The translations under genes were made by a program, and so were the position numbers. 64,000 nt of DNA from Oceaniferula flava (GTDB taxonomy: Bacteria > Verrucomicrobiota > Verrucomicrobiia > Verrucomicrobiales > Akkermansiaceae), in assembly GCF_016811075.1 (NCBI RefSeq), contig NZ_JAFBGL010000002.1, positions 310,001-374,000 of the forward strand, written 5' to 3'. Positions 26,973 to 42,895 of the stretch are shown here, one piece after another. Each line of letters begins with the position of its first letter. Position 1 is the stretch's first letter. The notes beneath the pieces are model-generated. The model did not search any database. It was not told the origin of the DNA and was given only the letters and a program-made list of their open reading frames with translations.

Positions 26973-29900
26973 ATGAAAACACACATTAACCATCAACCTG
27001 CTGGAAACCGACAAGGTTTTGCATTGATTGCTACCATTTCGGTGATGGTGCTTCTTGTCATGATCGCACTCTCCATGCTTTCGCTTTCCACCGTGGAGCT
27101 GCGCCAAAAATCTCATGAGCAGCATCAGAAGCAAGCTCAGGCGAATGCGCGTATGGCTCTGATGATTGCACTGGGTGATTTGCAAAAATACGCAGGGCCC
27201 GATCGCCGGGTGACTGCCACGGCGTCCATTTTGGGTGATAGCGTTTCTCCTCATAAGCGGAATTACACCACCGTCTGGGATACTTCTGAATGGGATGTGA
27301 CTGATCCAGTTGCTTCTCGTGATAGCCAGGCTTACATGGCTGCTCTGGTATCGGGTCGGGATGAAGATACTCCCGCCACTCGTGCCACGGCGACCTCCGA
27401 GCTCAGTACGGCTGTGCCAACTTCTGACTCCCGCTGGGTGAGTCTGGTAGCTGAAGGTTCCGTCGAGGATGAAGATGATTTCGTCTACGCTGAAAAAGTG
27501 GACGTCGATCAGGGATCAAACACCGGTAGTTATGCCTACTGGGTGGGGGACGAAGGCGTGAAAGCTCGTTTCGACATTGCTGTGGCCGATGATTCCGCGA
27601 CCCAAACTTGGGCCACTGCGGGTCGCATGGGCGTGCCAATGGGAACAGGTATTCACAAAATGACCGACATGGATGCCTATGAGGAATACTTACCTGACGG
27701 CAGTGAAGTCGCGAATCTTCCGAAGTTTCTTACGCTTGGATCTGTTGATCTGAGTAACATCGACCAAGCTGCTGTAGGGCGTCATTTTCATGATGTGACC
27801 AGCTCACACGTTGGTCTTCTGGTGGACAACCGCTGGGGTGGTATTCGCCGCGATTTATCCACTGCCTTCGAGTTGGACATCGAAGATTTCAACGAAGTGG
27901 AGGAATTCAGCGCTGCTGAGGAGGTGAACCTGACCTCCGGATACAGCTCGTTCACCAGCGATACCCGCACCAACCCACTTTATTATTCAGACGACACTGA
28001 CGAGTCACTGGGCTTCCTTTACGAGATTCCTGTTGATTCAACCAATCGCTATCGTGGGCCAACTTGGGACGTCTTGCGTAACCATTACAGAACCTACAAG
28101 AAGGAACGCAACGAGCTGAACTTCAGAGGGGTTTCCGTATCAAGTGGTTCGGATGCCTTGGTCGCGCACAGTGTTGTTCCGTTCACTTATAACCGTCAGC
28201 CTGGCACGACGGATAACCGTTCTCTCGGATCTCGTCACCAAGCCACCCACAGTAACTCCAATAGCTCACAGAACTTCCCCATCGTTTCGAAACACGGTGT
28301 GGCAGGTAGTTATGATACGTTCCAGAACGGGGCACGCAACGAGCCGACCGTTCAGAAAGTGGCTCCACAGCTGATCCGCATGGTGATGCAGTATGGTCTG
28401 GCCCGTGATAACAATGATTATTACATTACGCTGAACCCATTCTTCGTGGTTCACAATCCCTACAACTACCCGATCGAATTCTACTCGATGAGTGTTGATC
28501 TGGCTTACTTCAACTTCCTCAACGGCATGGAGGTGACCTACACCGAAGCTGGAACGGGGTCGACTAAGACTCAGTTGTTCACACTGGGGTCAGGAGGCCA
28601 TTCTCAAAAACTGCAGAGCTTCCGGATCTTGCCTTCCTCCACCGGGAACAACCGTCTCGAGCCAGGTCAGATCAAGGTTGTCTCCGTGAGTGGTGGCTTC
28701 ACCGGAACCTCTGGTGACTCCTACGTCATCCCAACCGAGATGCAATACAACGAAGCCGCCGGGGTTTACCTGGGTGGCGGTGTGAAGAAGACCATGAACG
28801 TGGAGCCCAATTCACAGATTACCACGAAGATCTTCTATTCACGCTTCAAAAGTGGCTACCTGACCTATCAGATCCCACAAATCTTCAGTCGTCTGCATCA
28901 CCCGCTGCAGGCAGATGGTTCCACGGCTACATTGCTCGATCAATCGGATGCCTCAGGCGATTCATTCATCTACGATCGCCAGCTATACTCGCTTATTCAG
29001 TCGATTCAGGTAACACCAGCCAGCCTGAACGAAGTGACAACGACGAAAAACGTCAACTCCTTCCCTGAGCCAGCAGTTGGCGGTCTGGGTCTGTTCACTC
29101 TCGATATGGGGCTGAAAGATTACGACGGCAATGCCGCCGTGATGAGCGACTTCAATTACCGCGCTTTGGCAACAAGTTCTGCTGATTACGACAAGTCTCA
29201 CGAGGTAGCCCCGAACTGGGACCTGATCCTCAGTGATACCCAGCTTTCTTCTTTGCAGATTGCCGGTAGCGATCGCACCAGTGCTTACTGGGGTGAATCA
29301 AAAAGTGCTTCAGGAGGCGGATCCTCCAAAGTGGTGCTCTTTGACCTGCCTCACGCACCAATGGTTTCTTTGGGTGGTCTGCAGCATGCGGATACTTCGA
29401 AATTCAACCTCCACGCCATGCGTTCCATTGGTCACTCTCGTCCGCAGGTTGGGGCATCTGACCTACGCAAGCTGTATAACAAATTTAGCGCAACTCGCTT
29501 CACCGGAACTTCCACCAAGTATCAGTTCGATACCTCATGGGCTGCCAACGAGGCTCTTTGGGATCGTTACTTCTTCTCCGGAATTAATTGGGGTGGTGCA
29601 GATTCCCAACCATACAGTAGCCATGTGGAGGCTGTAACTGCGCTGACTGAAGGCGAAGTCGATAAGGTGCTCGCCAACTCCCGCCTGACTCTGGTGGACT
29701 TGCCATCATCCGACGATCTCAGCGATCTGCAGGACTACACAAAAATTGGTAACTATCTCGGCATCGCCGGTGCATTCAACGTGAACTCAACCAGTGTTGA
29801 CGCTTGGAAGGCTGTTCTGTCCTCGCTCAGTGGTAGAGAAATCTCCTACCTCAGCGGAACCAGCCTGGTAAACGAGACCATGGGTGCCGATGTTTCTCCG

Positions 29901-30539
29901 ATCAGCCGATTCTCCACTCCGGCCAGCCTGGATGATGATTACTCCGGTATCCGCGCACTGGACGATGGCGAGCTGGATAAGCTGGCTGAAGCGATCGTTG
30001 AACAGGTGAAAGAGCGTGGTCCGTTCATGGGCTTGGCTGACTTTGTTAACCGTCGCCTCCTCAGTGATGACACCGGTGAAGCTGGTGCCATTCAGGCCGC
30101 CATTGACGAATCTGATGTCAACAATGGCTTCGAGGTAGGTAGCACCTCCGGAAACGGTCTGGCCCGCTCCGCTCCGACTGCGAGTGAAGGGATGCCTCGT
30201 CAACTTGACCAAGGCGATGTCTTAAACCTTCTCGGACCAGTGATTGCCACTCGTTCGGATACCTTCATCATCCGCGCTTATGGCGACAGTAAAGATAGCG
30301 CCGGGAATATCAAAGCTCGTGCTTGGTGCGAAGCTGTGGTTCAACGGACTCCTGAATGGGTTGTCGATCCAGAGGTTGACAGCACCGTTCAGAATCCAGA
30401 TTACCCTAGTGGAAACTCCACTAGCGAGCCAATCCTTCGCCAGTGGATTCCAAATACAAGTCTGCCAGAGACGGCTGAGACCTTCGGGCGCCGTTTCAAG
30501 GTGAGCTCATTCCGCTGGTTGTCCGCGAACGAAATTTAG
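26973..30539 (+). CDS. Verru_Chthon cassette protein A (large PilX/GspK-like pseudopilin)
   Basis: 1188 residues. Short basic leader, then a prepilin-like junction QG|FALIATISVMVLLVMIA with a long hydrophobic helix (about 18-40), then ELRQKSHEQHQKQAQANARM and LMIALGDLQKYAGPDRRVTA, which match the verrucomicrobial cassette protein A family (TIGR02600). Position +5 is Ala, not Glu, as in GspK-type pseudopilins. Most of the rest is a large exported domain rich in Ser/Thr/Asn and beta strands. Around 1015-1027 is GPFMGLADFVNRRL, a helical motif reminiscent of the GspK SAM-like region. Upstream is a 278-nt AT-rich noncoding stretch. A secreted protein follows after 13 nt. Confidence 0.85.
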   Translation: MKTHINHQPAGNRQGFALIATISVMVLLVMIALSMLSLSTVELRQKSHEQHQKQAQANARMALMIALGDLQKYAGPDRRVTATASILGDSVSPHKRNYTTVWDTSEWDVTDPVASRDSQAYMAALVSGRDEDTPATRATATSELSTAVPTSDSRWVSLVAEGSVEDEDDFVYAEKVDVDQGSNTGSYAYWVGDEGVKARFDIAVADDSATQTWATAGRMGVPMGTGIHKMTDMDAYEEYLPDGSEVANLPKFLTLGSVDLSNIDQAAVGRHFHDVTSSHVGLLVDNRWGGIRRDLSTAFELDIEDFNEVEEFSAAEEVNLTSGYSSFTSDTRTNPLYYSDDTDESLGFLYEIPVDSTNRYRGPTWDVLRNHYRTYKKERNELNFRGVSVSSGSDALVAHSVVPFTYNRQPGTTDNRSLGSRHQATHSNSNSSQNFPIVSKHGVAGSYDTFQNGARNEPTVQKVAPQLIRMVMQYGLARDNNDYYITLNPFFVVHNPYNYPIEFYSMSVDLAYFNFLNGMEVTYTEAGTGSTKTQLFTLGSGGHSQKLQSFRILPSSTGNNRLEPGQIKVVSVSGGFTGTSGDSYVIPTEMQYNEAAGVYLGGGVKKTMNVEPNSQITTKIFYSRFKSGYLTYQIPQIFSRLHHPLQADGSTATLLDQSDASGDSFIYDRQLYSLIQSIQVTPASLNEVTTTKNVNSFPEPAVGGLGLFTLDMGLKDYDGNAAVMSDFNYRALATSSADYDKSHEVAPNWDLILSDTQLSSLQIAGSDRTSAYWGESKSASGGGSSKVVLFDLPHAPMVSLGGLQHADTSKFNLHAMRSIGHSRPQVGASDLRKLYNKFSATRFTGTSTKYQFDTSWAANEALWDRYFFSGINWGGADSQPYSSHVEAVTALTEGEVDKVLANSRLTLVDLPSSDDLSDLQDYTKIGNYLGIAGAFNVNSTSVDAWKAVLSSLSGREISYLSGTSLVNETMGADVSPISRFSTPASLDDDYSGIRALDDGELDKLAEAIVEQVKERGPFMGLADFVNRRLLSDDTGEAGAIQAAIDESDVNNGFEVGSTSGNGLARSAPTASEGMPRQLDQGDVLNLLGPVIATRSDTFIIRAYGDSKDSAGNIKARAWCEAVVQRTPEWVVDPEVDSTVQNPDYPSGNSTSEPILRQWIPNTSLPETAETFGRRFKVSSFRWLSANEI

Positions 30540-30552
30540 AATCACACCATCC

Positions 30553-31284
30553 ATGCTTACTCAAAAACTATTCGCACTCAGTTGTCTTGCCTTGATCTTC
30601 AATAGCGCCTCCTTGGGTGCTCAGGAAGACGGCACCGCTGCCGCAGACAAGAGACAGGAAGAGAAAAACCTATCCGGCTTCCGTGTTAGCCTCTTCAGTG
30701 AGTGGGGTGGCAAGCAGCTTTATGTGAAGGGCCGTAAGGGTGATTTTCGTGAGCTCAAGGCTTACAAGATGTCTTACACGCAGAAGTTCCCTTTTGCCAA
30801 AGATCAGCCCATCACCCTCTTCACCAAGGTGGAGCGGCCTGATGCCGAACCTGTCTACACTCCCTACCTTACGGTCAAAAAACCCGTGGATGTGGTGGAG
30901 CCATTGTTGATTCTTTATTGGAGCAAGCAACTCAAGAAGGGATCGGCTCAAGTGCTTGAGTTCTCGCCTCGTCGTTTCAAATATGGATCGTATCAAGTGG
31001 TGAACCTCGGTGCTACTCCGGTTCTCGGTTACGTCCAAGATAAGAAAAACCGCTTTCTTTGTGCACCCAAGAAATCGGTCATCAACAGTTACTCTGTAGA
31101 AAATGGCACGGTCATCCCTATCGAGATGATCACCAAAATCGGCGACGAGCCTAAGGTGGTGTATTCCTCCGTGGTGAAGCACATTAAGCAGCGCCGCATG
31201 ATTTTCTTCATCTACCCGCAGACGAAAGCCAGTGGCAAGGTGCAATATCGCACCCAGGTGATGGAAGATTACTTCAACGAATAG
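30553..31284 (+). CDS. secreted protein of unknown function, cotranscribed with cassette protein A
   Basis: 243 residues with a signal peptide (about 1-23, cleaved near SLGAQ). The mature part is Lys- and beta-rich (FRVSLFSEWGGKQLYVKGRK, PLLILYWSKQLKKGSAQVLE) with no cysteines and no family I recognise. The 13-nt gap to cassette protein A and the strong terminator after it make an A-plus-this-gene operon likely, so it may be an exported partner of the pilin-like complex. Confidence 0.75.
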   Translation: MLTQKLFALSCLALIFNSASLGAQEDGTAAADKRQEEKNLSGFRVSLFSEWGGKQLYVKGRKGDFRELKAYKMSYTQKFPFAKDQPITLFTKVERPDAEPVYTPYLTVKKPVDVVEPLLILYWSKQLKKGSAQVLEFSPRRFKYGSYQVVNLGATPVLGYVQDKKNRFLCAPKKSVINSYSVENGTVIPIEMITKIGDEPKVVYSSVVKHIKQRRMIFFIYPQTKASGKVQYRTQVMEDYFNE

Positions 31285-31333
31285 CACCCCGTAGAGGGGT
31301 TAGTTTTTTACCTGGTCATATACAATCAGAATA

Positions 31334-31367
31334 GGCTGCGAACTTGATGTTCGCAGCCTTGTTGTTT
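31334..31367 (+). terminator. Rho-independent terminator
   Basis: GGCTGCGAAC (31334-31343), loop TTGAT, GTTCGCAGCC (31349-31358), followed by TTGTTGTTT. Ends the operon of cassette protein A and the secreted protein. Confidence 0.93.
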
Positions 31368-31622
31368 GGTGATGAATGCTTGAAGCGACCCGTGTGTGGC
31401 GAGGAGATCACAGAGGTTTTTATTGCAGATATGGTAAAACCAGCTATAGAATACCTCCCCCAATCCCCGGGTCACTCTTCGTTCTGCCATCTGCGCGAAC
31501 TGAAGGGTGCCCGGTTTTACGCTTTCAGGATGTTAGGTTTACACAGAATCTGTGTCGGCATGCATGACGAGGCGGCGTAGCGCGATTAGACAACGATTTA
31601 ATACATCACCTATTTAAAAGGA
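31368..31622. other. intergenic region before the SNF2 helicase gene
   Basis: About 255 nt with no convincing gene; a 78-codon frame across it resembles nothing and starts inside the terminator. A small hairpin ACACAG-AAT-CTGTGT lies near 31540. AAAGGA just before 31623 is a good ribosome site for the next gene. Confidence 0.5.
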
Positions 31623-34600
31623 ATGAATCCAGACAGAGCGACACTGAACTTTCTCAACAGTTTTCCAGAAAAAGCACGCACCCGTGGAGATACTCTCCAG
31701 GAGGAGGGCGCGGTGACTCAAATTTTTGGTAACCACTTATTTATCCAAGGCCGGGTGGAAGACGCCACCGGAACCTTCCGCACCAGTCTGCGCCTTCAGG
31801 GGAACCGCTGGTTTGGAAGCTGCACCGCGGAAGACGAAATCGTCGCCGGCGCCTGCATGTATGCCACCATGATGGAGCGTATGCACCGTGGCGAAGATCT
31901 CCCCGAGAGCCCGAATGAGTTCGATGACACACCGATCATTGACGTCATCGAGGACAAGCTGGGTCGTGAGCTCGACGACAAGGAGGCCGACTTCATCGGC
32001 AAGGTGGAAAAGCGCTACCGTCGTTATGTGATCGAAGGTGAAATCCACGATCACGATCTGGTGCGTCTGAATCCACGCTGGGAAATTGTCAGCTATGATC
32101 CGCTGGAACTCTGGCCGATGCCTCCAGGCGACATCCTCGAATTTTGGAACTACATCGCTTACGCGTTTTACAAGAAGAAGCTGCCTTATCCTGAATTCCT
32201 CAATGCTGTCACCGACCTCGAAGGCGTGCAGAAGAAAATGCAGGAATGGGAGCGCGAGCGCGAAGTGGCCGAATGGTATGACCGCATCGAAAGCGTCAAC
32301 GAACGCCCACCGATCGATAAGCCAGTGCACATCGAATTCCGCCTGCTTTCCACGATCAATGAAGCCCGTGTGGAATACAAGGAAGGCAAAGAAGGAGGAT
32401 CCGAGTGGCTGCCACTGCGTGAAAAAAACGACATCGATCGTTTTCTCGGCCTGTTTGCCGATTCCGCTCTCCGCATGGATGCATCCAGTCAGCTGATCTG
32501 GGAGCAGTTCCTGACCTTCTATAAAAACGAAGGCGATGCTCGCATCGATCTTGATCAAGAAGAGGCCTGTCAGTTCATGAACCGCATCTTCCGTCAGCCT
32601 GCGCTGAAGGGATACGTGGTGAACCTTGATGAACGCCAGTTCAAGGTCGTCGATAAATCACTGCGTTGGATCTGTGAAGACGATCCCTATGCGCCGGACA
32701 GCTTTGCCCTGCAGCTGGTCACCGCCGCAGGCGAACACGTCACTCACTCAGTGCGCTTGCTGCCTGGTCGTGAGGTCCTTTACCAATCAGACGAAACCGT
32801 TTTCCCCGGGCCGCCACGCTGGCTTACGGAGACCGACGTCCAACCACGCTACCACATCCCCAAGGATGTCATCGATAGCCTGGAGGGTGTTGAATTCCTC
32901 AGAAAAGTGGGAGCCAGCTTGCCGGAATCACTGCGTGAGCGTGTGACCGACTTGGATCTCTACCCTCGCTTCAAGATGAAGATCGAGCAGGGGCTCACCG
33001 CCGCCGAGACCGAGCATTTGGTCGTGGATGTGCGCGCTCTGGAGAAAAAGGAACGCCGCGAAGAAAAACGCATCAAAGACGAGTGGGAACTGGTCGAGCA
33101 GCAGCCGGTCAAAGGCAAGCAGCTCTTGCGCTTTGCTCGTGAAGAACTCTACCCCGTGCCATCACTGCTCGCTCATATGGGCCTGACCTATGATGAGAAA
33201 TTGGACGCCTTTAAGTCGCGAATCACCAAGCTCTTCCCCGAGAAATTCTCCGAGTGGGCGAAAAACCTACCCGAGTCCATGGTCACCGAGATGGATGGCA
33301 AGCTGCAAACGCTGCTGGCTGACCCAGTGACCGCCGCCATCCGCTTCGAGGTGGTGAATCAGGAAATCGACTGGTTCGACCTCCGCATCGTTATCGATGT
33401 GGAAGGCGTGACTCTCTCCAATGCCCAAATCCGTTCACTGGTCGCCGCTCGCGGTGGTTACGTTCGCATGGACGACGGTGGCTGGATGCGTTTGGAAATC
33501 AAGCTCGATGCCGATCAGCGCGATGCCGTGACCCGTCTCGGACTCGATCCTTTCGATCTCACTGGCGAGACACACCGGATGCACGCCCTGCAGCTGGCCG
33601 ATCCAAAAGCCGCCGAGGTGTTCGATCCGAAGGCTTGGAAGCGCATCAAAGATCGCTCCCGCGAAATTCAACTCGAGGTCAATGCCGAGGTGCCGAAAGG
33701 TCTCAAAGCGACCCTTCGTCCCTACCAGGTGGAAGGTTTCCGATTCCTCGCTTACCTCGCCGTCAACCGCTTCGGTGGTTTGCTCGCGGATGACATGGGT
33801 CTGGGTAAAACGATCCAGTCCATCACCTACCTGCTGTGGCTCCGTGAAGAGGAGCTTAAGAAACAAAAAGGCGACCCCCTGAAGGTGCCGCCATCACTTG
33901 TGGTCTGTCCGAAGTCCGTGATCGATGTTTGGCACTCTGAGTGCGGCAAGTTCGCGCCCGAACTCCGTGTCAAAGTGCTCCGCACCCGCGACGACTTGGA
34001 TCTCCACATCCTCGAAACCGAGGTGGACGTCTTCGTTCTCAACTACGCCCAGCTCCGCCTCAGTGGCGAAGAGCTGGCCAAGGTCAAGTGGCTCACCACC
34101 ATCCTCGATGAGGGTCAACAGATCAAGAACCCGGATTCCAAGGCTGCCAAGGCTGCTCGCGATCTGAACTCAATGAACCGTCTGGTGCTCACGGGTACTC
34201 CGATTGAGAACCGCCTGATGGATATGTGGTCGCTGATGTCCTTCGCCATGCCTGGTGTGCTGGGAAGTCGTGCTTACTTCAAGAAACGCTTCGACAAGCG
34301 CAAGGACCCCGGTGCCCAGAGCCGGCTGGCTTCCCGTCTCCGCCCATTCCTGCTTCGCCGGACCAAGCTCCAGGTCGCCAAAGATCTTCCGCCAAGAACG
34401 GAGGAAGAGGTCTTCGCTGAAATGGAAGGTGTCCAGGACGAGATGTACAAGGCCGAGCTTAAGCGCATTCAGAAGGCGCTGCTCGGATTTGAGTCTGACG
34501 AGGCGGTGAAGAAGAACTCCTTCGCCATCCTTCAGGGGCTCATGCGCCTGCGCCAGATTTGCTGTCACCCGGGCCTGATCGATCCCAAGTTCCTGAAAGA

Positions 34601-35333
34601 GGAAAGTGCGAAAATGAACGCTCTGTTCTACCTGCTGGACCAGCTGCGTGAGGAGGGCCACAAGGTGCTGGTCTTCTCCCAGTTCGTTTCCATGCTCGAT
34701 ATCATCAAGGCCCGCCTTGAGGTGGAGAGTCGCCCATTCCACTACCTCACCGGTCAGACCAAGGACCGTAAGGGTGAGATTGAAAGTTTCCAGACAACCA
34801 AAGACCCGTCCGTCTTCATGCTCTCGCTGAAGGCTGGTGGTGCTGGTCTGAACCTGACCTCGGCCTCCTACGTCATCCTCTACGATCCATGGTGGAACCC
34901 CGCTGTGGAAAACCAGGCGATTGACCGGACGCACCGGATTGGCCAGAAGAACAAGGTGATTGCTTACCGCTTGCTCACACGTGAGACGGTGGAAGAGAAA
35001 ATCCGCGTGCTTCAGCACCAGAAAACGCAGTTGGTCACCAACGTGCTCGGTGACGAAGGCTTCGCCAGCAACCTGGGCATGGACGATCTCGCATTCATCC
35101 TCGGCACCGGCGGTCCGGGCATGGACGACTTCGATGACGAACCGGAAACAGCCAAACGTCCGGCGAAAAAAGCCGGTGGCCTCATTGCCGATGACGTGTC
35201 TGACGCCGACAAGGCCGATGCCGCTGCGCAGAAAGCCGCGAAGAAAATTACCAAGAAGGCAGTGAAAAAGACTGCTAAGAAAGCGGCAAAGAAGGCTGCG
35301 GCCAAAAAATCCGCTAAAAAGGATAGTAAATAA
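31623..35333 (+). CDS. SNF2-family DEAD/DEAH helicase with histone H1-like Lys/Ala tail
   Basis: 1236 residues. The N-terminus (about 1-90) resembles a degenerate SWIM-type domain (RWFGSCTAEDEIVAGACMYA) that lacks most zinc ligands. SNF2 ATPase from about 690: Walker A DDMGLGKT (near 723), motif II DEGQ (near 829), TGTPIENRLMDMWSLM, and motif VI QAIDRTHRIGQ (near 1098). The last 55 residues are a Lys/Ala repeat (KKAVKKTAKKAAKKAAAKK) like bacterial H1-type DNA-binding tails. Bacterial SNF2 proteins are ATP-driven DNA translocases, with RapA (transcription recycling) the best known. The gene sits between cassette protein A and cassette D-B-C, with its own likely promoter and terminator. Confidence 0.92.
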   Translation: MNPDRATLNFLNSFPEKARTRGDTLQEEGAVTQIFGNHLFIQGRVEDATGTFRTSLRLQGNRWFGSCTAEDEIVAGACMYATMMERMHRGEDLPESPNEFDDTPIIDVIEDKLGRELDDKEADFIGKVEKRYRRYVIEGEIHDHDLVRLNPRWEIVSYDPLELWPMPPGDILEFWNYIAYAFYKKKLPYPEFLNAVTDLEGVQKKMQEWEREREVAEWYDRIESVNERPPIDKPVHIEFRLLSTINEARVEYKEGKEGGSEWLPLREKNDIDRFLGLFADSALRMDASSQLIWEQFLTFYKNEGDARIDLDQEEACQFMNRIFRQPALKGYVVNLDERQFKVVDKSLRWICEDDPYAPDSFALQLVTAAGEHVTHSVRLLPGREVLYQSDETVFPGPPRWLTETDVQPRYHIPKDVIDSLEGVEFLRKVGASLPESLRERVTDLDLYPRFKMKIEQGLTAAETEHLVVDVRALEKKERREEKRIKDEWELVEQQPVKGKQLLRFAREELYPVPSLLAHMGLTYDEKLDAFKSRITKLFPEKFSEWAKNLPESMVTEMDGKLQTLLADPVTAAIRFEVVNQEIDWFDLRIVIDVEGVTLSNAQIRSLVAARGGYVRMDDGGWMRLEIKLDADQRDAVTRLGLDPFDLTGETHRMHALQLADPKAAEVFDPKAWKRIKDRSREIQLEVNAEVPKGLKATLRPYQVEGFRFLAYLAVNRFGGLLADDMGLGKTIQSITYLLWLREEELKKQKGDPLKVPPSLVVCPKSVIDVWHSECGKFAPELRVKVLRTRDDLDLHILETEVDVFVLNYAQLRLSGEELAKVKWLTTILDEGQQIKNPDSKAAKAARDLNSMNRLVLTGTPIENRLMDMWSLMSFAMPGVLGSRAYFKKRFDKRKDPGAQSRLASRLRPFLLRRTKLQVAKDLPPRTEEEVFAEMEGVQDEMYKAELKRIQKALLGFESDEAVKKNSFAILQGLMRLRQICCHPGLIDPKFLKEESAKMNALFYLLDQLREEGHKVLVFSQFVSMLDIIKARLEVESRPFHYLTGQTKDRKGEIESFQTTKDPSVFMLSLKAGGAGLNLTSASYVILYDPWWNPAVENQAIDRTHRIGQKNKVIAYRLLTRETVEEKIRVLQHQKTQLVTNVLGDEGFASNLGMDDLAFILGTGGPGMDDFDDEPETAKRPAKKAGGLIADDVSDADKADAAAQKAAKKITKKAVKKTAKKAAKKAAAKKSAKKDSK

Positions 35334-35340
35334 TCGCAAT

Positions 35341-35370
35341 CAGGGTGGCATCGAATGAGGTGCCACCCTG
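35341..35370 (+). terminator. strong hairpin after the SNF2 gene
   Basis: CAGGGTGGCA (35341-35350) and TGCCACCCTG (35361-35370) form a perfect 10-bp stem, 8 nt after the stop. There is no T-tract on the plus side, so it is a hairpin of probable but not certain terminator function. Confidence 0.6.
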
Positions 35371-35424
35371 CTACGATGTCTGTCGCACATTTGCGTTAGA
35401 TGGAAAAACGTGTAGCTTGCCAGT

Positions 35425-35664
35425 ATGAAAAGTTTTTTCGTCCTCGTGGCGGCCATACTCAGTGTGATCTACCTGATTAATCCAGGTGCTGGATTTATTG
35501 AATTCCTGCCTGATAATCTCCCAATTGTGGGTAATTTGGATGAGGCTACTGCCACAGCGATCCTCCTCGCCTGTGCTCGATACTTTGGCTTCGATATGGC
35601 TCGTTTTTTTGGTAAGAAGAAAGAGGAAGATACTCAGAAAGAGACAGTCATCGACGTGGATTAG
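35425..35664 (+). CDS. small DUF1232-like membrane protein
   Basis: 79 residues: a hydrophobic start (MKSFFVLVAAILSVIYLINP), then EFLPDNLPIVGNLDEATATA, matching the DUF1232/YkvA pattern 'xDLIPDFIPxxGyxDD', a second helix and a charged tail (KKKEEDTQKE). Role unknown. It precedes the ExbD gene by 52 nt. Confidence 0.6.
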   Translation: MKSFFVLVAAILSVIYLINPGAGFIEFLPDNLPIVGNLDEATATAILLACARYFGFDMARFFGKKKEEDTQKETVIDVD

Positions 35665-35716
35665 GGCAAGAAAGCTCCAAGTTTAACCGGTTTCATGCGT
35701 TTCACTCAGTGAAACC

Positions 35717-36172
35717 ATGAAAAAGTCCCCATCAAATGACACCTCAATATCTGCTCACGAAAATGACGCCCCGAAGCTCGACATCTCGTCCCTAATCGAC
35801 GTCTGTTTTCTCCTGTTGATCTATTTTTTGGTCACCACCACTATCCAGCCTCGCGAGCAGGATCTCAGCACTCATGTTCCATTTCCCTCGGATCATCATC
35901 GGGCTGTGATCCTTCCGATGGTGATTGAAATCAAACAGGATGGGGGAGTTGTCGTGAATCCATGCGACGCTGCAGAAATTGTGGAGTCGGACCCTGACAG
36001 CCGCAAGCTGCCATTGTTGAGTGATCGACTACAGATTCTCACCAGCCTCGGACGGGCCGATCAGCCCAAGGTGCTTCTGAAAGTCCATGATTCCGTGCAA
36101 CAGCAGCGTTATATCGATGTGATCAATTGTTTAGCTGGCGCTGGTATAAAAGACATCGCCTTAGTGGACTAA
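35717..36172 (+). CDS. ExbD/TolR-family protein, without ExbB partner nearby
   Basis: 151 residues. A short cytoplasmic N-terminus, then one TM helix with LDISSLIDVCFLLLIYFLV (about 21-40), in which the Asp of 'LIDV' is the proton-path residue of ExbD/TolR, then a periplasmic domain ending VDVI-type (QQQRYIDVINCLAGAGIKDI). ExbD normally works with ExbB/TolQ to use proton force for outer-membrane or periplasmic tasks; no ExbB is in the window. It lies upstream of the pseudopilin genes D-B-C. Confidence 0.85.
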   Translation: MKKSPSNDTSISAHENDAPKLDISSLIDVCFLLLIYFLVTTTIQPREQDLSTHVPFPSDHHRAVILPMVIEIKQDGGVVVNPCDAAEIVESDPDSRKLPLLSDRLQILTSLGRADQPKVLLKVHDSVQQQRYIDVINCLAGAGIKDIALVD

Positions 36173-36249
36173 ATGCTTGATGCGTCATATCGACTTGTCT
36201 AGCTTGCATGAAGTTCGGATTAACCATCCATCGACGGTAGTTTTTGACA

Positions 36250-36261
36250 ATGTATTTACAT
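36250..36261. promoter_or_regulatory. candidate palindrome before cassette D-B-C
   Basis: ATGTATTTACAT, next to a perfect -35-like TTGACA (36244-36249). A similar 12-mer (ATGTAAATGCAT, 63125-63136) lies before the second cassette protein A. Possible shared operator; evidence is only this similarity. Confidence 0.3.
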
Positions 36262-36348
36262 TATAGCTTGCCGCGCGGAAAAAAATAGGTTAATGATCAG
36301 AAAAGGAGCTTCCATCCCTGTGGAATCTTCGTAGCATTCACGTCAACT

Positions 36349-37095
36349 ATGAATTATTTATCACCATCGCCCACTCGTCACCTGCTTGGTTCGTATAAAG
36401 CGGGACTTCGCAGCGGATCTAATCGACACGCTTTCACTTTGGTGGAAATGTTGGTGGTAATTACCATTATTACCATTCTACTCACGATTGGAGCGATGGG
36501 CTTGCGCAATTTGGGTAAATCCAGTGGGGTTTCCGCCGGTGTCCCTCTTGCCGAGGCAGCCTTTGCCGAAGCCAGAGCCGTTTCTGTAGGGAACGGCACC
36601 ACGAGTCGACTGTTGATCAGTGCCGATCGTGACGATAGCGAGAAATACCTGCGTTACATGCTCGTGGTTTACGAAGCTGATGATGGTCGTTGGATCGCTG
36701 CCGGTCGTGGTATGTATCTGCCAGAAGGTGTCTATTTCAGTCAGGAATACAGTAAGTTGAATCACGAGGACGGAACAGGGGAAATTCCTGAGCTGACCGG
36801 TTCCGATGAGGAAATCTATCTGCGAGAAGATTCCGGCGTGAGTAATGATAACCTCTCTGGACCCTATTTTTATTACCAGTTCAACTCTGAAGGAATTGCC
36901 AATGATGCAGGGGCAAGTTTTGTCTGCGGGGCAGGCTCTCTGCCACCAGGTGCAGAATTTCCTCGTGCCGGATCAGGTGGCGGACCTAAAAACTTCGGAG
37001 GTTTCATGATCTGGTCCAAAGGAACGACTTCGATCTTCCGTCACCCCGATCAGATTGACATCCCATCCGACGCCGGTCCTGGGGATGAATTCTAA
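36349..37095 (+). CDS. Verru_Chthon cassette protein D (FimT/GspH-like pseudopilin)
   Basis: 248 residues. A long leader of about 28 residues, then a prepilin site HA|FTLVEMLVVITIITILLT with Glu at +5, and a helix leading into a beta domain (AEAAFAEARAVSVGNGTTSR is the conserved part after the helix, as in FimT/GspH). Matches cassette protein D (TIGR02596). The -1 residue is Ala rather than Gly. First gene of a D-B-C operon; B starts 69 nt downstream. Confidence 0.85.
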   Translation: MNYLSPSPTRHLLGSYKAGLRSGSNRHAFTLVEMLVVITIITILLTIGAMGLRNLGKSSGVSAGVPLAEAAFAEARAVSVGNGTTSRLLISADRDDSEKYLRYMLVVYEADDGRWIAAGRGMYLPEGVYFSQEYSKLNHEDGTGEIPELTGSDEEIYLREDSGVSNDNLSGPYFYYQFNSEGIANDAGASFVCGAGSLPPGAEFPRAGSGGGPKNFGGFMIWSKGTTSIFRHPDQIDIPSDAGPGDEF

Positions 37096-37164
37096 TCCCT
37101 ACCAACCTCACATTTTTTAAATCGGAAACACCACTTTATTTCCCGATCCAACCAAGTTCTTTAT

Positions 37165-37908
37165 ATGAAACACAGCGGAATCAAAACCAAACAAGGCTTC
37201 ACACTGGTCGAAACCGTGATCGCGATGGGGATCATCACCATCATGATCACCGCCTTCCTGGCAGCCTTCGGGCCAGCCGTGCAGGGAATTCGTAAATCCA
37301 TGTCAGCCAAAGAAGCCAACCGTTTGGCCACGACTCTGGAAAACGAACTTTCCGTTCTCCGTCCGGACGAAGCCGGAACCTCCGGCTACGACACCGCTTT
37401 TGAGAAAGCTTACGATTGGATTGAAAATTCCGCCGATCTCACGCCGGGTAACGATACCATGGTGCTGATCTATCAATACCGCGGTGACCCCACTGCCACT
37501 CCAAACAGTGATGGGACTTTGCAACCATTCACTACTGGAACCACTGAAGATCTGCCAGGTCAGGACTATGTGATTCAATCCGTGGTGCGACGCTTGGGGG
37601 ACACCAAGGTGGACGACGAGTTGCAACCAAAAGTGGTGGAAGGCCGCGTGTTCTACGTGCGCATGACCCAGCTGGTATTCAATACCGATGGAGAACTGGA
37701 GGTCAGCACATTGGCCGACAACAAAATCGCTGATCCCCGCAACCCTGGAACAGCGGTGGAGTATGAAAACTACCCTGAAGCGGTAGTCGCTTTCCAAGCC
37801 GAATTCTACGTGATGAAAAGCAGTCTGGTGCAGTATGTGCGCAACGGCTTCGAAATTGATAAGCGGGGTAAACCTGTCTTCACCAGAAACATGGCTGTCC
37901 GCCGCTAA
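37165..37908 (+). CDS. Verru_Chthon cassette protein B (PilV/GspI-like pseudopilin)
   Basis: 247 residues. Leader MKHSGIKTKQG, cut before FTLVETVIAMGIITIMITAF (Glu at +5), typical of minor pilins PilV/GspI, then an exported domain of about 200 residues. Matches cassette protein B (TIGR02598). It lies between D and C with 37 nt to C. Confidence 0.85.
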   Translation: MKHSGIKTKQGFTLVETVIAMGIITIMITAFLAAFGPAVQGIRKSMSAKEANRLATTLENELSVLRPDEAGTSGYDTAFEKAYDWIENSADLTPGNDTMVLIYQYRGDPTATPNSDGTLQPFTTGTTEDLPGQDYVIQSVVRRLGDTKVDDELQPKVVEGRVFYVRMTQLVFNTDGELEVSTLADNKIADPRNPGTAVEYENYPEAVVAFQAEFYVMKSSLVQYVRNGFEIDKRGKPVFTRNMAVRR

Positions 37909-37945
37909 TTCCCCCTCGCTCAGAAACCTGTAGGATTTCCAATTT

Positions 37946-38869
37946 ATGAAAACAATCTCTCTTCCCAATCGAAACAAAGGCTTCACGCTCATTGAGCTGC
38001 TCGTTGCCATGACCATCACCGTGATCCTTCTGGGTGTGCTGGTCTACATGACGGGTATCTCGATGGATACTTACCGCAATAGTCGCGATGAAGTCCGTGC
38101 CTCACGTCAGGCCAAGGAAGCGCTGAGCACCATCTCAAAGGACTTTGAAAGCATGATTTCCCGTCGTGATGGTAACAACTACGAGTGGTTGTATGCCGGG
38201 CAGGAAAGTGGCAATCAGGGACCTACAGGTAATGAAATTCCCAACACCAGCCGTCTGATTTTCTTCACCGGCGCAACTGATCGCTACAACGGCGACATTG
38301 GCGGCACGAATGATGAGGGTGGTGATGTTTCCGCCGTGAGCTACCGTCTGGTTTTCCGCGACCAGATTGGCGACACTGAGGACGACCGTTTTGCTGTCTT
38401 CTCACTCTATCGTCACCTGGTGGATCCGGATGAGGCTTTTGATTACTTGGCCGTCACCGATTTGGACTCCACCTTCGATTCCACGAATGATCTAGCGTCA
38501 GAGAATTTCCTGGTTGAAAACATCTATGAATTCACGGTGACCTTCGTCATTGAAGTGACTGTTCCGAGCACCAGCGGTGCATCCGTCACCCACACGGTCA
38601 GAGCCAGCATGAAGCCTGGTGCTCTCACCGAATTCAGAATCAAAGGATCGGCTCTCGATTACACCGGCACCCTTCAGGTTCCCAGTGGCTCTGGCTTGTC
38701 CGAAGACCAAATCAAAAGTGGCCGTGTGGTCGGTGTTGACATCGCCATGACCGTGCTCACGGACGTTGGTCTCACTCTTTCGAAACGTCTGGGATCCACC
38801 GCTTGGGAAAAAGAACGTGGCAAGCACATGCACCACTTCAGCAAAAGTATCAGCGTCCCACGCTCTTAA
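37946..38869 (+). CDS. Verru_Chthon cassette protein C (PilW/GspJ-like pseudopilin)
   Basis: 307 residues. Leader MKTISLPNRNKG, then FTLIELLVAMTITVILLGVL (Glu at +5) and a helix continuing SRDEVRASRQAKEALSTISK as in PilW/GspJ. Matches cassette protein C (TIGR02599). Last gene of the D-B-C operon; a textbook terminator follows 31 nt later. Confidence 0.85.
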   Translation: MKTISLPNRNKGFTLIELLVAMTITVILLGVLVYMTGISMDTYRNSRDEVRASRQAKEALSTISKDFESMISRRDGNNYEWLYAGQESGNQGPTGNEIPNTSRLIFFTGATDRYNGDIGGTNDEGGDVSAVSYRLVFRDQIGDTEDDRFAVFSLYRHLVDPDEAFDYLAVTDLDSTFDSTNDLASENFLVENIYEFTVTFVIEVTVPSTSGASVTHTVRASMKPGALTEFRIKGSALDYTGTLQVPSGSGLSEDQIKSGRVVGVDIAMTVLTDVGLTLSKRLGSTAWEKERGKHMHHFSKSISVPRS

Positions 38870-41263: not shown

Positions 41264-42895
41264 ATGATTTCCTACGAACGCGATCCGCAGCAGACCATTC
41301 CTGAATCTTCCGTTAAAATCATTGGCCTCGGTGGGGCTGGTGGCAACATGTTGGACCGCGCTGCACTCGATGGCATGACTGGGGCGGAAATGCTCTGCGT
41401 CAACACAGACATGCGGACACTTGCCAGTTCTGTGGCAGGTGATAAAATTCAAATCGGCCGGAACCTGACCAAGGGGCTGGGCGCTGGGGGAGACCCTGAA
41501 CTTGGCTTGAAAGCGGCTCAGGAGTCCGAGCAGGAAATCCGCGACGCCCTGCGCGATCGGAAAATGGTTTTCTTATGTGTCGGTCTCGGCGGCGGCACGG
41601 GCTCAGGTGCAGCCCCTCTAATCTGCCGTATTGCCCGTGAAGAGGGCGCTTTTGTGGTGGTTTTTGCCACCATGCCATTTTCCTTCGAAGGGGCGCGCCG
41701 CCGTGACCAGGCTGAAACAGCCCTGAACGAACTCGCCGTTCTTTCTAACGCTCTGGTGACCTTTGACAATGGCCGGATGGGTGAGTTGGTGCTGGCGAAG
41801 CAAGGCATCCACGAGGCCTTTGCCGCAGCGGATCGAATGATCTCGGAGTCGATCAAGGCTGTCACCCGACTTGTGGTGCGTCCCGGACTGATCAATGTGG
41901 GCTTGGACGATTTGATGACCGCTCTCAACACAACACGCTCGCGTTGTTTGTTCGGTTCGGGCATCGCAACCGGAGAGAACCGCTCGCAAGCTGCGCTCGA
42001 GAACTCTCTGACCAGCCCTTTGCTCGATAAGGGGAGCTTGTTAGGCGATGCTACCACCGTGCTGGTTCATATCTGTGGTGGAGAAAGCCTCACCCTCTAC
42101 GAGGTGGAGCTGCTCATGCAAGGACTGGCCAAACACGTGCCGTCCACAGCGCACATCTTATTCGGAGCTGCTGTCGACCCCAGCATGGGCGACAGCCTGA
42201 GCGTAACTTTGGTGAGTGCTTTGCCAGAAAATAAACTCAACCCGGAAAGCCAGTCAGTTTCGGAGCAGAAATGTCCTACGGAGCCGGTCTCCCAAAGCGA
42301 TGAGGAGAAAGCCGTGGCTGCCGCTGTAGCCGCCGCCTCATTGATCGATACCTCCGAGGACGAGGAAATCATGGAACCTTCGGAGGGCTTTAGCCCTGCA
42401 GAAGAGGAGCCAGAAGCTGAGGTCGAGATGAGCGAAGACCCTTTCTTTGCCGCACCGATCAAACCCAGCAATCCTTTCGCTGAGGCTGATGATGAGGAAG
42501 ATTACGACGAAGCTGCCGACGTTCCGGTCATCGGCGATGTTTTTGAAAAGGAAGAAAAGGAGGTAGCCAGCGTGGAGCCTGTCGAGGAACTGGAGCCCGT
42601 CTCCGATCCCAGTCAAGAAACAGAGGAAGTGGCGGAGTTTGAAGCATTGGATGATCTGGAAGACTTGAATGGCGCGGATGAGTCCGCTCCACAGGATGAA
42701 GTATTCTCCGGAATGGAGCCGATCAACGAAGAGCCCATCTCACAGATGCCGCCTAAACGGCCGGGGAAAACGCCAGCTCAGCCAGAATTGGAGCTCGATG
42801 GTGGGCCCAAAGGTAAATTTGAGGGTGAAAGCCCGAATTTCCACGAAGGTGAAGATTTGGATATCCCTCCTTTCCTCCGCAAGAGGCGGCGTTAA
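41264..42895 (+). CDS. ftsZ: divergent cell division protein FtsZ
   Basis: 543 residues, long for FtsZ (about 380). Tubulin-type GTPase core to about 320: VKIIGLGGAGGNMLDRA, nucleotide motif GGGTGSG (109-115), PFSFEGARRRDQAETAL. The T7 synergy loop reads GLINVGLDDL (Gly213, Asp215, Asp216) where E. coli has NVDFADV, so the first of the two key Asp is Gly. A 200-residue acidic linker (many Glu/Asp) leads to the conserved C-terminal peptide DLDIPPFLRKRRR that binds FtsA/ZipA-like partners. It polymerises at mid-cell to organise division. It is not in a dcw cluster. Confidence 0.9.
   Translation: MISYERDPQQTIPESSVKIIGLGGAGGNMLDRAALDGMTGAEMLCVNTDMRTLASSVAGDKIQIGRNLTKGLGAGGDPELGLKAAQESEQEIRDALRDRKMVFLCVGLGGGTGSGAAPLICRIAREEGAFVVVFATMPFSFEGARRRDQAETALNELAVLSNALVTFDNGRMGELVLAKQGIHEAFAAADRMISESIKAVTRLVVRPGLINVGLDDLMTALNTTRSRCLFGSGIATGENRSQAALENSLTSPLLDKGSLLGDATTVLVHICGGESLTLYEVELLMQGLAKHVPSTAHILFGAAVDPSMGDSLSVTLVSALPENKLNPESQSVSEQKCPTEPVSQSDEEKAVAAAVAAASLIDTSEDEEIMEPSEGFSPAEEEPEAEVEMSEDPFFAAPIKPSNPFAEADDEEDYDEAADVPVIGDVFEKEEKEVASVEPVEELEPVSDPSQETEEVAEFEALDDLEDLNGADESAPQDEVFSGMEPINEEPISQMPPKRPGKTPAQPELELDGGPKGKFEGESPNFHEGEDLDIPPFLRKRRR

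Follow-up and report, generated by a model that had tools for sequence, protein, structure and literature searches.

The stretch of Oceaniferula flava DNA analysed here (the window, 64,000 nucleotides) raises the question of what four genes with prepilin-like starts, designated A, B, C, and D, build together. The four open reading frames are confirmed at the positions given by a first-pass annotation and lie on the forward strand (Table 1); that annotation had proposed that they encode the tip of a secretion or pilus machine. The evidence reviewed below points to the same answer, namely that D-B-C-A probably forms a tip complex of minor pilins comparable to GspH-I-J-K or FimU-PilV-PilW-PilX. 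Three further genes lie between A and D and were absent from the earlier list, encoding a small protein, E, a SNF2-family helicase, and an ExbD/TolR-like protein. The module includes E. The other two were set aside because neither found a match in 19 other D-B-C loci; the helicase is probably a bystander or an insertion, and the ExbD/TolR-like gene is probably a bystander.

Table 1. Positions of the tip module and intervening genes in the window.
Feature	Position	Strand	Basis
A: putative giant GspK-fold minor pilin, 1188 aa	26973..30539	+	junction G15/F16, no Glu at +5; predicted fold
E: 243 aa, signal-peptide-like start, all-beta, partner of A	30553..31284	+	fold like tandem beta-sandwich domains
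SNF2-family helicase, between A-E and D-B-C	31623..35333	+	profile match
ExbD/TolR-like protein	35717..36172	+	profile match
D: GspH/FimT-like minor pilin, 248 aa	36349..37095	+	junction A27/FTLVE
B: GspI/PilV-like minor pilin, 247 aa	37165..37908	+	named by position; junction G11/FTLVE
C: GspJ/PilW-like minor pilin, 307 aa	37946..38869	+	named by position; junction G12/FTLIE

The N-termini set A apart from the other three proteins. The junctions read from the sequence (cut marked by a slash) are QG/FALIA in A, with Ala at +5, HA/FTLVE in D, QG/FTLVE in B, and KG/FTLIE in C, and they confirm the earlier observation that Glu at +5 is present in D, B, and C and missing from the much larger A. 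That Ala, not Gly, precedes the cut in D is a detail missing from that observation. The Pfam N_methyl model scored above its cut-off of 21.2 bits for D (30.8), B (25.0), and C (37.2) and was absent among the profile matches of A, which has a type III (prepilin) signal and, in the predicted model, a long N-terminal helix spanning residues 17-74. From a sample of 80 A proteins, including that of the window, 69 junctions were readable by pattern, none with Glu at +5. GspK and PilX are both reported to lack this residue (PMC7541494).

Gene order and sequence similarity speak with different force about the identities of D, B, and C. The order D-B-C, previously equated with H-I-J, was intact in 25 of the 26 genomes examined, the remaining locus being cut by a contig end. 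Like the missing Glu5 of A, this goes beyond chance. No protein passed the cut-off of its curated counterpart: D scored 18.0 bits to GspH (cut-off 80), B 18.3 to GspI (44.35), and C 18.8 to GspJ (64.85), and B scored higher to GspH (20.3 bits) and ComGE (24.8) than to GspI. The equations of D with H, B with I, and C with J are thus tentative, being suggested by gene order and by weak, poorly discriminating N-terminal matches.

Whether A matches GspK structurally had been named beforehand as a test, and the outcome was positive. When Foldseek's candidates for the predicted structure of A (pTM 0.86) were re-aligned with VIA-align, the GspK chain of the solved GspI-J-K tip (3ci0_K) ranked first, at Z 12.6 over 236 of 280 GspK residues and 2.9 Å; the second-best PDB chain reached Z 4.2, and only one of 999 aligned chains reached Z 5. 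Foldseek alone, queried with the whole model, found nothing at E ≤ 0.001 and ranked 3ci0_K eighth (E 0.58). As modelled, A is a pilin of the GspK fold enlarged by several hundred residues. Its beta-rich middle is variable and its ends are conserved.

Attempts to prove this kinship by sequence failed in Pfam, hhalign, and PDB profile searches alike. Pfam returned nothing relevant for ten A C-termini, and a PDB profile search returned only DnaE (E 1.5 and 1.6). The profile-profile comparison proposed with the first-pass annotation gave a moderate match of the A N-terminus to GspK (prob 61) and a nonsignificant one of the C-terminus (prob 1.9), little above a control with helix-hairpin-helix proteins that we take to be Tex-like (prob 1.1); the curated GspK model NF037980 scored 23.8 bits, at the N-terminus only, and did not pass its cut-off of 130 bits. 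A GspK-like helical motif had also been claimed near residue 1020. Its helices are real in the model (998-1015 and 1021-1025, over the consensus RGPFLSLADFVNRRL), but its sequence resembles helix-hairpin-helix motifs in general rather than GspK specifically, the closest being that of DnaE (E 1.5), with weak T2SSK matches. The T2SSK Pfam matches within A open reading frames were not counted as support because they are weak and mixed with reading frames that, by our assumption, look like DnaE and Tex.

Each of the 13 A genes detected in this genome is directly followed, within 54 bp, by an E gene. Full-length A and E distances correlate within genomes, with r 0.64 for 13 pairs (reached in 0 of 2000 shuffles), 0.81 for 14 pairs in a second set (0 of 2000), and 0.78 for 8 pairs in a third (7 of 2000). 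No downstream E was counted for 21 of 119 A reading frames in the collected loci, among them all five A read in Akkermansia-type loci (L069-L071), and E is also missing from 4 of 18 A genes in genome G091. The fold of E is all-beta, with the PepT2 ectodomain as its best structural match (Z 13.4); PilY1 was not among the 50 matches listed, and Pfam revealed no common family among 69 E members (two families, one member each). We know of no counterpart of E in type II secretion systems (T2SS).

The machinery expected with such a cassette was found. Prepilin peptidase matches occur in 39 of the 40 genomes with a strong C, the exception (G014) being 82% complete, while PF00437 ATPases (GspE/PilB/PilT family) and an Amuc_1098-type secretin were detected in all 112 genomes searched. 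The present genome contains prepilin peptidase matches, best-named PilB, GspE/PilB, and GspF/PilC genes, all slightly below cut-offs, and adjacent Amuc_1098, 1099, 1100, and 1101 genes above curated cut-offs, so that the motor and peptidase sought elsewhere in the genome are accounted for, along with a secretin. It also has a T2SS-like locus, in which GspG is above its cut-off and GspH, GspK, and GspD are best-named below theirs, and a third secretin locus. The four proteins might accordingly cap a type II pseudopilus, each A being a cargo specificity factor and E a cargo or adaptor, a reading favoured by the presence of that locus, by the secreted appearance of E and its position beside A, and by a proposal that GspK touches T2SS substrates (PMC7541494). 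This reading is nevertheless unlikely. The T2SS-like locus comes with a pseudopilin-like gene series of its own, and the neighbours of A-E pairs are diverse (ABC exporter, sigma/FecR, GH95, lyase, cytochromes), with no common type among ten proteins scanned from seven loci, for which reason these neighbours were rejected as cargo. Furthermore, Akkermansia genomes G053 and G085 carry D-B-C and A with two secretin matches each. Neither has a T2SSK match, a weak argument, as the T2SSK model also misses the GspK of the present genome. Both secretins of G053 are of the Amuc_1098 type, which makes a type IV pilus a better host than a T2SS, and an Amuc_1098-type type IV pilus is the likely driving machine for A-D; in the present genome, the T2SS-like pseudopilin set and the third secretin locus make this assignment less certain.

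The distribution of the genes bears on a further alternative, that A-E pairs are free-standing surface proteins that borrow a pilin-like anchor and are functionally unrelated to D-B-C. Consistent with it, the stretch around D-B-C held no A in 19 of the 26 genomes read (one further stretch was too short), and A has been amplified independently: this genome has 13 A genes and one C, the window C being its only match at E ≤ 1e-5, and 18 A genes occur in one relative. A single base is not the rule in every genome, since G103 has two strong C genes. Against this alternative, which is judged very unlikely, stand the GspK fold and missing Glu5 that A retains, linked cassettes in families f2, f4, and f5, and the presence of C in 38 of 38 genomes with A, a count not corrected for phylogeny. 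The linked cassettes L072, L073, and L294 have the order D-B-C-A, equal to H-I-J-K. Across 112 genomes, A (E<1e-15) was found in 38 and C (E<1e-25) in 40, again uncorrected for phylogeny; of the two with C only, G097 yielded no A and G046 a short fragment from the C-terminus of A. The same four of the 63 genomes in f2 and f4 carry both A and C. It is hardly credible that the cassette is the known ‘Verru_Chthon cassette’, as the first-pass annotation had it, with A-D as its members, since the best named match of C (TIGR02599, 38 bits) and the alignment of the A N-terminus with the TIGR02600 family (prob 97) are outweighed by scores far below the NCBIfam cut-offs (A 20 against 332.3, B 21.2 against 51.4, C 38.2 against 256.5, and D 25 against 70 bits), by C-terminal profiles that do not align significantly (prob 0.8), and by the occurrence of TIGR02600, the true Verru_Chthon A, in 74 of 112 genomes, comprising 74 of the 77 that lie outside f1 and f6 and none of the 35 in these two families (the host family and one sister family). 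A-D belong, by sequence comparison, to a family parallel to Verru_Chthon. The tip-complex reading remains best supported, by the fold of A, its missing Glu5, gene order, and co-occurrence.

We infer that the four proteins form one complex at the pilus tip and exchange A on one base, just as we infer the driving filament machine and what the A proteins bind. Prepilin peptidase would cut A, B, C, and D, which would come together in the inner membrane, A being uppermost because it lacks Glu5, and would prime a filament that a PilB/PilC motor pushes through an Amuc_1098-type secretin. With its several hundred extra residues, A would fit only at the filament end, its variable domain lying outside the cell. 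E, exported by Sec, would pair with its cognate A, occupying the position that PilY1 has next to PilX. A single D-B-C base would serve many A-E tips, 13 A genes being available here, so that the cell could alter the binding target of its pilus.

Both orientations of the N-terminal quarter of A were found in Akkermansia. Whether the N-terminal part of the gene is an inversion switch is an evenly balanced matter. Two observations weaken the case for it and for the fuller proposal below: at two of the six paired loci the bodies are almost the same, and the long identical arms allow a rival cause. A literature search found no paper joining Akkermansia, an intragenic inverton, and a pilin, and inverton supplements may already tabulate the A inversion. 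The full proposal, in which one D-B-C base takes any of many giant GspK-like caps, most with their own E, and in which, in Akkermansia, site-specific inversion of the N-terminal part of the A gene at the genus inverton motif selects the cap or turns it off, is tentative and somewhat more doubtful than the switch itself.

If true, these proposals would supply both a structure and a function for large, multi-copy Verrucomicrobiota families that so far have neither name nor assigned function, among them the families of gut Akkermansia, whose pili are believed to play a part in life in mucus. Pilus-tip exchange would become testable, with one base and many caps, most having a cognate partner; Akkermansia would have a physical switch readable by PCR; and the GspK fold would extend to caps near 1200 residues. 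With a shared base and interchangeable giant caps, a single bacterium might be able to vary the targets that its fibres contact or hold.

Among known systems, Verru_Chthon (TIGR02600, 02598, 02599, 02596), a name found in no paper by literature search, resembles the present cassette in having a giant A, with no Glu5 in any junction read, and in a homologous N-terminus; a pilin gene adjoins TIGR02600 in 5 of 12 short loci. The GspH-I-J-K tip (PDB 3CI0 for I-J-K) is alike in the predicted fold of A, the missing Glu5, and the gene order of linked cassettes, whereas GspK is only about a quarter as large as A, which occurs in many copies against one C and shares its genome with a separate T2SS-like pseudopilin set. 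ComZ of Thermus thermophilus (PMC6561018) is a GspK-like pilin with a large beta-rich insert, argued to fit only at the tip; it has a beta-solenoid and binds DNA, while A is larger and multi-copy and its beta-rich part differs. The FimU-PilV-PilW-PilX-PilY1 priming and tip complex of type IVa pili, as in Myxococcus xanthus (PMC7541494), likewise combines minor pilins and a secreted partner beside a Glu5-lacking pilin and provides several alternative tips for one machine. In M. xanthus, three clusters each encode their own four minor pilins and PilY1, whereas in the present genome amplification is confined to A-E (13 A against one C) and the sizes are reversed, a giant pilin being joined by a small secreted partner.

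The large protein A is almost certainly a pilin with the fold of GspK. Its structure model, built on an alignment of 76 A proteins (mean pLDDT 79.6, pTM 0.86), contains a helix at residues 17-74, early strands, a beta-rich middle, helices within 884-1090, and closing strands at 1097-1183. The structural match to GspK anticipated by the first-pass annotation was found with VIA-align, which ranked the GspK chain of the solved GspI-J-K tip (3ci0_K) first at Z 12.6 (236 of 280 residues, rmsd 2.9, model range 44-1188), the runner-up chain reaching only Z 4.2; Foldseek placed 3ci0_K at rank eight (E 0.58). The accessible text of PMC6561018 places the helical domain of GspK after the third strand and before the fourth. 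In the model, the elements follow an order consistent with the extra residues of A having been added at that point, their exact place being inferred. Mean identity among the A paralogs of O. flava is 34% in the N-terminal 300 residues, 19% in the middle, and 37% in the C-terminal 350, making the middle the most variable part.

The prepilin junctions of A-D agree with their earlier description, to which it can be added that the residue preceding the cut in D is Ala, not Gly. D, B, and C are recognized by Pfam N_methyl, a model missing from the matches of A. The reported lack of Glu at +5 in A extends to its family, with none among 69 readable junctions, the window's included (80 proteins listed, 11 without a pattern-readable junction left out); PilX and GspK both lack Glu5 (accessible text of PMC7541494).

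Positions of the cassette genes in the window, and of A C-terminal parts on contig C2 of the same genome
Feature	Position	Strand	Description
A	26973-30539	+	ORF
E	30553-31284	+	small ORF, between A and SNF2 helicase
SNF2 helicase	31623-35333	+	ORF within pilin cluster
ExbD-like gene	35717-36172	+	ORF
D, B, C	36349-38869	+	three ORFs
A C-terminal part (L249)	C2:375567-376634		A-E pair
A C-terminal part (L244)	C2:387373-388455		A-E pair

Assignment of A-D to the Verru_Chthon cassette, as first proposed, has to be given up. A Verru_Chthon model is the top NCBIfam name for C and one of several matched by A, B, and D (for A, GspK at 23.8 bits against 20.0 for TIGR02600, the cassette A family), and all scores fall far under their cut-offs (A 20/332.3, B 21.2/51.4, C 38.2/256.5, D 25/70 bits). 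Of the 112 genomes of the order, 74 have true TIGR02600 proteins (72 above cut-off); all 74 belong to the 77 genomes outside families f1 and f6, and none to the 35 inside them. Window-type A occurs in 38 (E<1e-15). One type or the other is present in 107 genomes and both in five, so that the two A families are nearly complementary in distribution (f1 and f6 vs f2-f5). Profile alignment matched their N-terminal 67 residues (prob 97, E 6.6e-11) and gave no significant match between their C-termini (prob 0.8), where motifs seem by eye to correspond (NVN/VNMN, RGPFLSL/FRSASEI, RSDTF/SNTF). On these scores, this distribution, and an alignment confined to the N-terminus, the window cassette is, at the level of sequence, a family parallel to Verru_Chthon rather than a member of it.

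Gene order and co-occurrence suggest that A-D probably form one tip complex. D-B-C was complete in 25 of 26 genomes, identical in order and strand in the window and at loci L072, L073, L102, L103, L104, L105, L267, and L283-L299; at L300 a contig end leaves only B and C visible. The stretch read around D-B-C included A in six of the 26, arranged as D-B-C-A-E (L072, L294), D-B-C-A (L073 and L295, the latter running off its contig and counted via its profile match), or A-E-D-B-C (L290 and the window, there with the SNF2 and ExbD genes intervening); no A lay in the stretch read in 19, and that of L300 is too short to tell. Sequence does not decide which of D, B, and C pairs with GspH, I, or J, the NCBIfam scores being 18.3 bits for GspI, 20.3 for GspH, and 24.8 for ComGE with B; 18.8 for GspJ, 18.5 for GspI, and 30.8 for ComGE with C; and 18.0 for GspH with D. 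The SNF2 helicase has as its top NCBIfam name "pilus expression-regulating Snf2 family helicase" (397 bits, cut-off 1100), which perhaps reflects only general SNF2 similarity. Farther along, at 41264-42895, lies a 543-aa FtsZ whose C-terminal tail is long and acidic (TIGR00065, 285 bits, slightly below the cut-off of 295.2).

Strong C matches (E<1e-25), well set apart from the next match at 3e-14, occur in 40 of 112 genomes, and all 38 genomes with A fall among these (raw genome counts, uncorrected for phylogeny). The other two hold a short A C-terminal fragment only (G046) or no A found (G097); four genomes with weak A matches and no A C-terminus (G004, G013, G033, G079) were excluded. By family, strong C is present in 32/32 (f1), 3/31 (f2), 0/13 (f3), 1/32 (f4), 1/1 (f5), and 3/3 (f6). 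A is often multiplied: counted as A-type C-terminus rows, with genes given where two rows share one ORF, copies number 14 in O. flava (13 genes), 18 in G091, 13 in G100 (12 genes), 13 in G009 (a 171-aa fragment among them), 11 each in G064 and G109, 4 in G103, 4 in G053 (3 genes), 3 each in G085, G010, and G006, and 1 each in G019 and G099. O. flava has a single C match, and G103 alone has two strong ones.

A type IV pilus, and not a type II secretion system, is likely the machine that bears this complex. The expected prepilin peptidase was matched in 107 of 112 genomes and in 39 of the 40 with strong C, and the motor sought in the first-pass annotation is represented by PF00437 ATPases, a family that includes PilT, in all 112, with best-named PilB, GspE/PilB, and GspF/PilC in O. 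flava, each slightly below cut-off. An Amuc_1098-type secretin was matched in every genome (101 over cut-off); in A. muciniphila, Amuc_1098 is an outer-membrane protein, the most abundant there according to the accessible text of PMC4960237. O. flava also carries a T2SS-like set, in which the GspG sought elsewhere in the genome exceeds its cut-off, GspH, GspK, and GspD are best-named yet below theirs, and GspI and GspJ are assigned by place alone. It further has adjacent Amuc_1098-1101 genes, a second Amuc_1098-type secretin, and, on contig C3 (L280:238-12996), a third secretin locus, of a different kind and accompanied by pilin-like genes, distinct from the Amuc_1098 operon and from the T2SS-like genes. 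The simplest choice of host is a type IV pilus because G053 and G085 possess D-B-C and A with two secretin matches each, both of the Amuc_1098 type in G053 (a separate search lists three Amuc_1098 rows), and no T2SSK match, a weak test in that the model also misses the GspK of O. flava. G053 is an Akkermansia (its Amuc_1100 scores 572 bits against the PDB protein), and the other genomes of its group carry the same genus label.

The small secreted-type gene E accompanies most A genes. Among the 119 A ORFs in the collected loci that reach 700 aa (L209 repeating L055 and L179 repeating L072 with identical proteins), E lies directly downstream of 95, at a median gap of 12 bp; three are cut by an end and 21 lack a counted E, an upper figure since three of these (L160, L168, L204) have an E match inside a longer overlapping ORF. 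E stands beside 13 of 13 A genes in O. flava (gap -43 to 54 bp) and 14 of 18 in G091. Past the right end of the window, at distances of about 1.5 and 13 kb, are two further A-E pairs. Within single genomes, where confounding by species history is excluded, full-length A and E distances correlate, with r 0.64 (n=13, reached by 0 of 2000 shuffles), 0.81 (n=14, 0 of 2000), and 0.78 (n=8, 7 of 2000); for parts of A, the weakest value was that of the N-terminus in G009 (r 0.54, 57 of 2000). A simple count found a hydrophobic start in 101 of 108 E proteins (three ORFs above 330 aa of 111 left out). The predicted all-beta E (pLDDT 90.1, pTM 0.80) most resembles the two-domain PepT2 ectodomain (Z 13.4, 176 residues, rmsd 3.5), and its second half AlgF, transthyretin, and the pneumolysin membrane-binding domain (Z 7-11); as modeled, these are common beta-sandwich folds, uninformative on activity. 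Directly 3' of Akkermansia-type A genes without a recognized E, ORFs of 261-298 aa (L071:1737-2633 and 16265-17050) might be diverged E. At L044:8458-11225, the genes immediately after an A-E pair encode an ECF-like sigma factor and a protein with a FecR domain. Exchange of A-E tips on one D-B-C base is slightly favored.

In Akkermansia, the head of A is found in both orientations. Six genomes (L069, L268-L272) have a full A and a headless copy head to head. In L069 and L269 the head points away from a 520-aa neighbor common to all six, which it faces in the other four; in G053 (L069:13229-17127), close to a contig end, the head-bearing A is split into two overlapping ORFs (1131 and 199 aa). 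A second locus has an unbroken A in L070, L274, and L275, and in L273 the head, as an ORF of 322 aa, is turned round and detached from its 983-aa body. Across these ten loci, the N-terminal part lies between inverted repeats resembling the Akkermansia inverton motif, CGGATT..AATCCG (accessible text of PMC13343947). Sites with at most one mismatch flank both sides of the head in eight of ten loci scanned and one side in L269 and L275; L070, L071, L273, and L274 each have one exact copy of the motif, which all six paired loci lack, their closest version departing by a single base in the first half.

The paired-locus inversions could also arise by ordinary recombination between identical outer arms, which measure at least 1.6 kb in all six. 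Only the short repeat was found in L273, however, which speaks for a site-specific event: aligned with L070, its breakpoints fall at a 13-base inverted repeat, and the flanking bases are swapped as inversion requires, except for one base differing between the two species (the inversion comparison draws on different species, one genome each). Since the head segment contains the membrane helix and prepilin junction, its inversion would either pick between bodies or switch A off. In L269 and L272 flipping would alter little, since the identity between the two bodies is 100% and 99.6%, respectively, across about 3 kb; in L069, L268, L270, and L271 the bodies differ in the middle. The odds that inversion switches tips in Akkermansia are evenly balanced, and this locus may already be among the 32 A. 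muciniphila members of an inverton group given in the accessible text of PMC11892184.

The whole case, with one D-B-C base, many A caps, most with their own E, and head inversion choosing or silencing the cap in Akkermansia, is put forward tentatively, at somewhat below even odds. A minor-pilin tip is of a known kind, and alternative tips are already known in Myxococcus; what is new, in our view, is a set of giant caps with the GspK fold, multiplied as A-E pairs over the one C found, together with a genus that inverts their heads.
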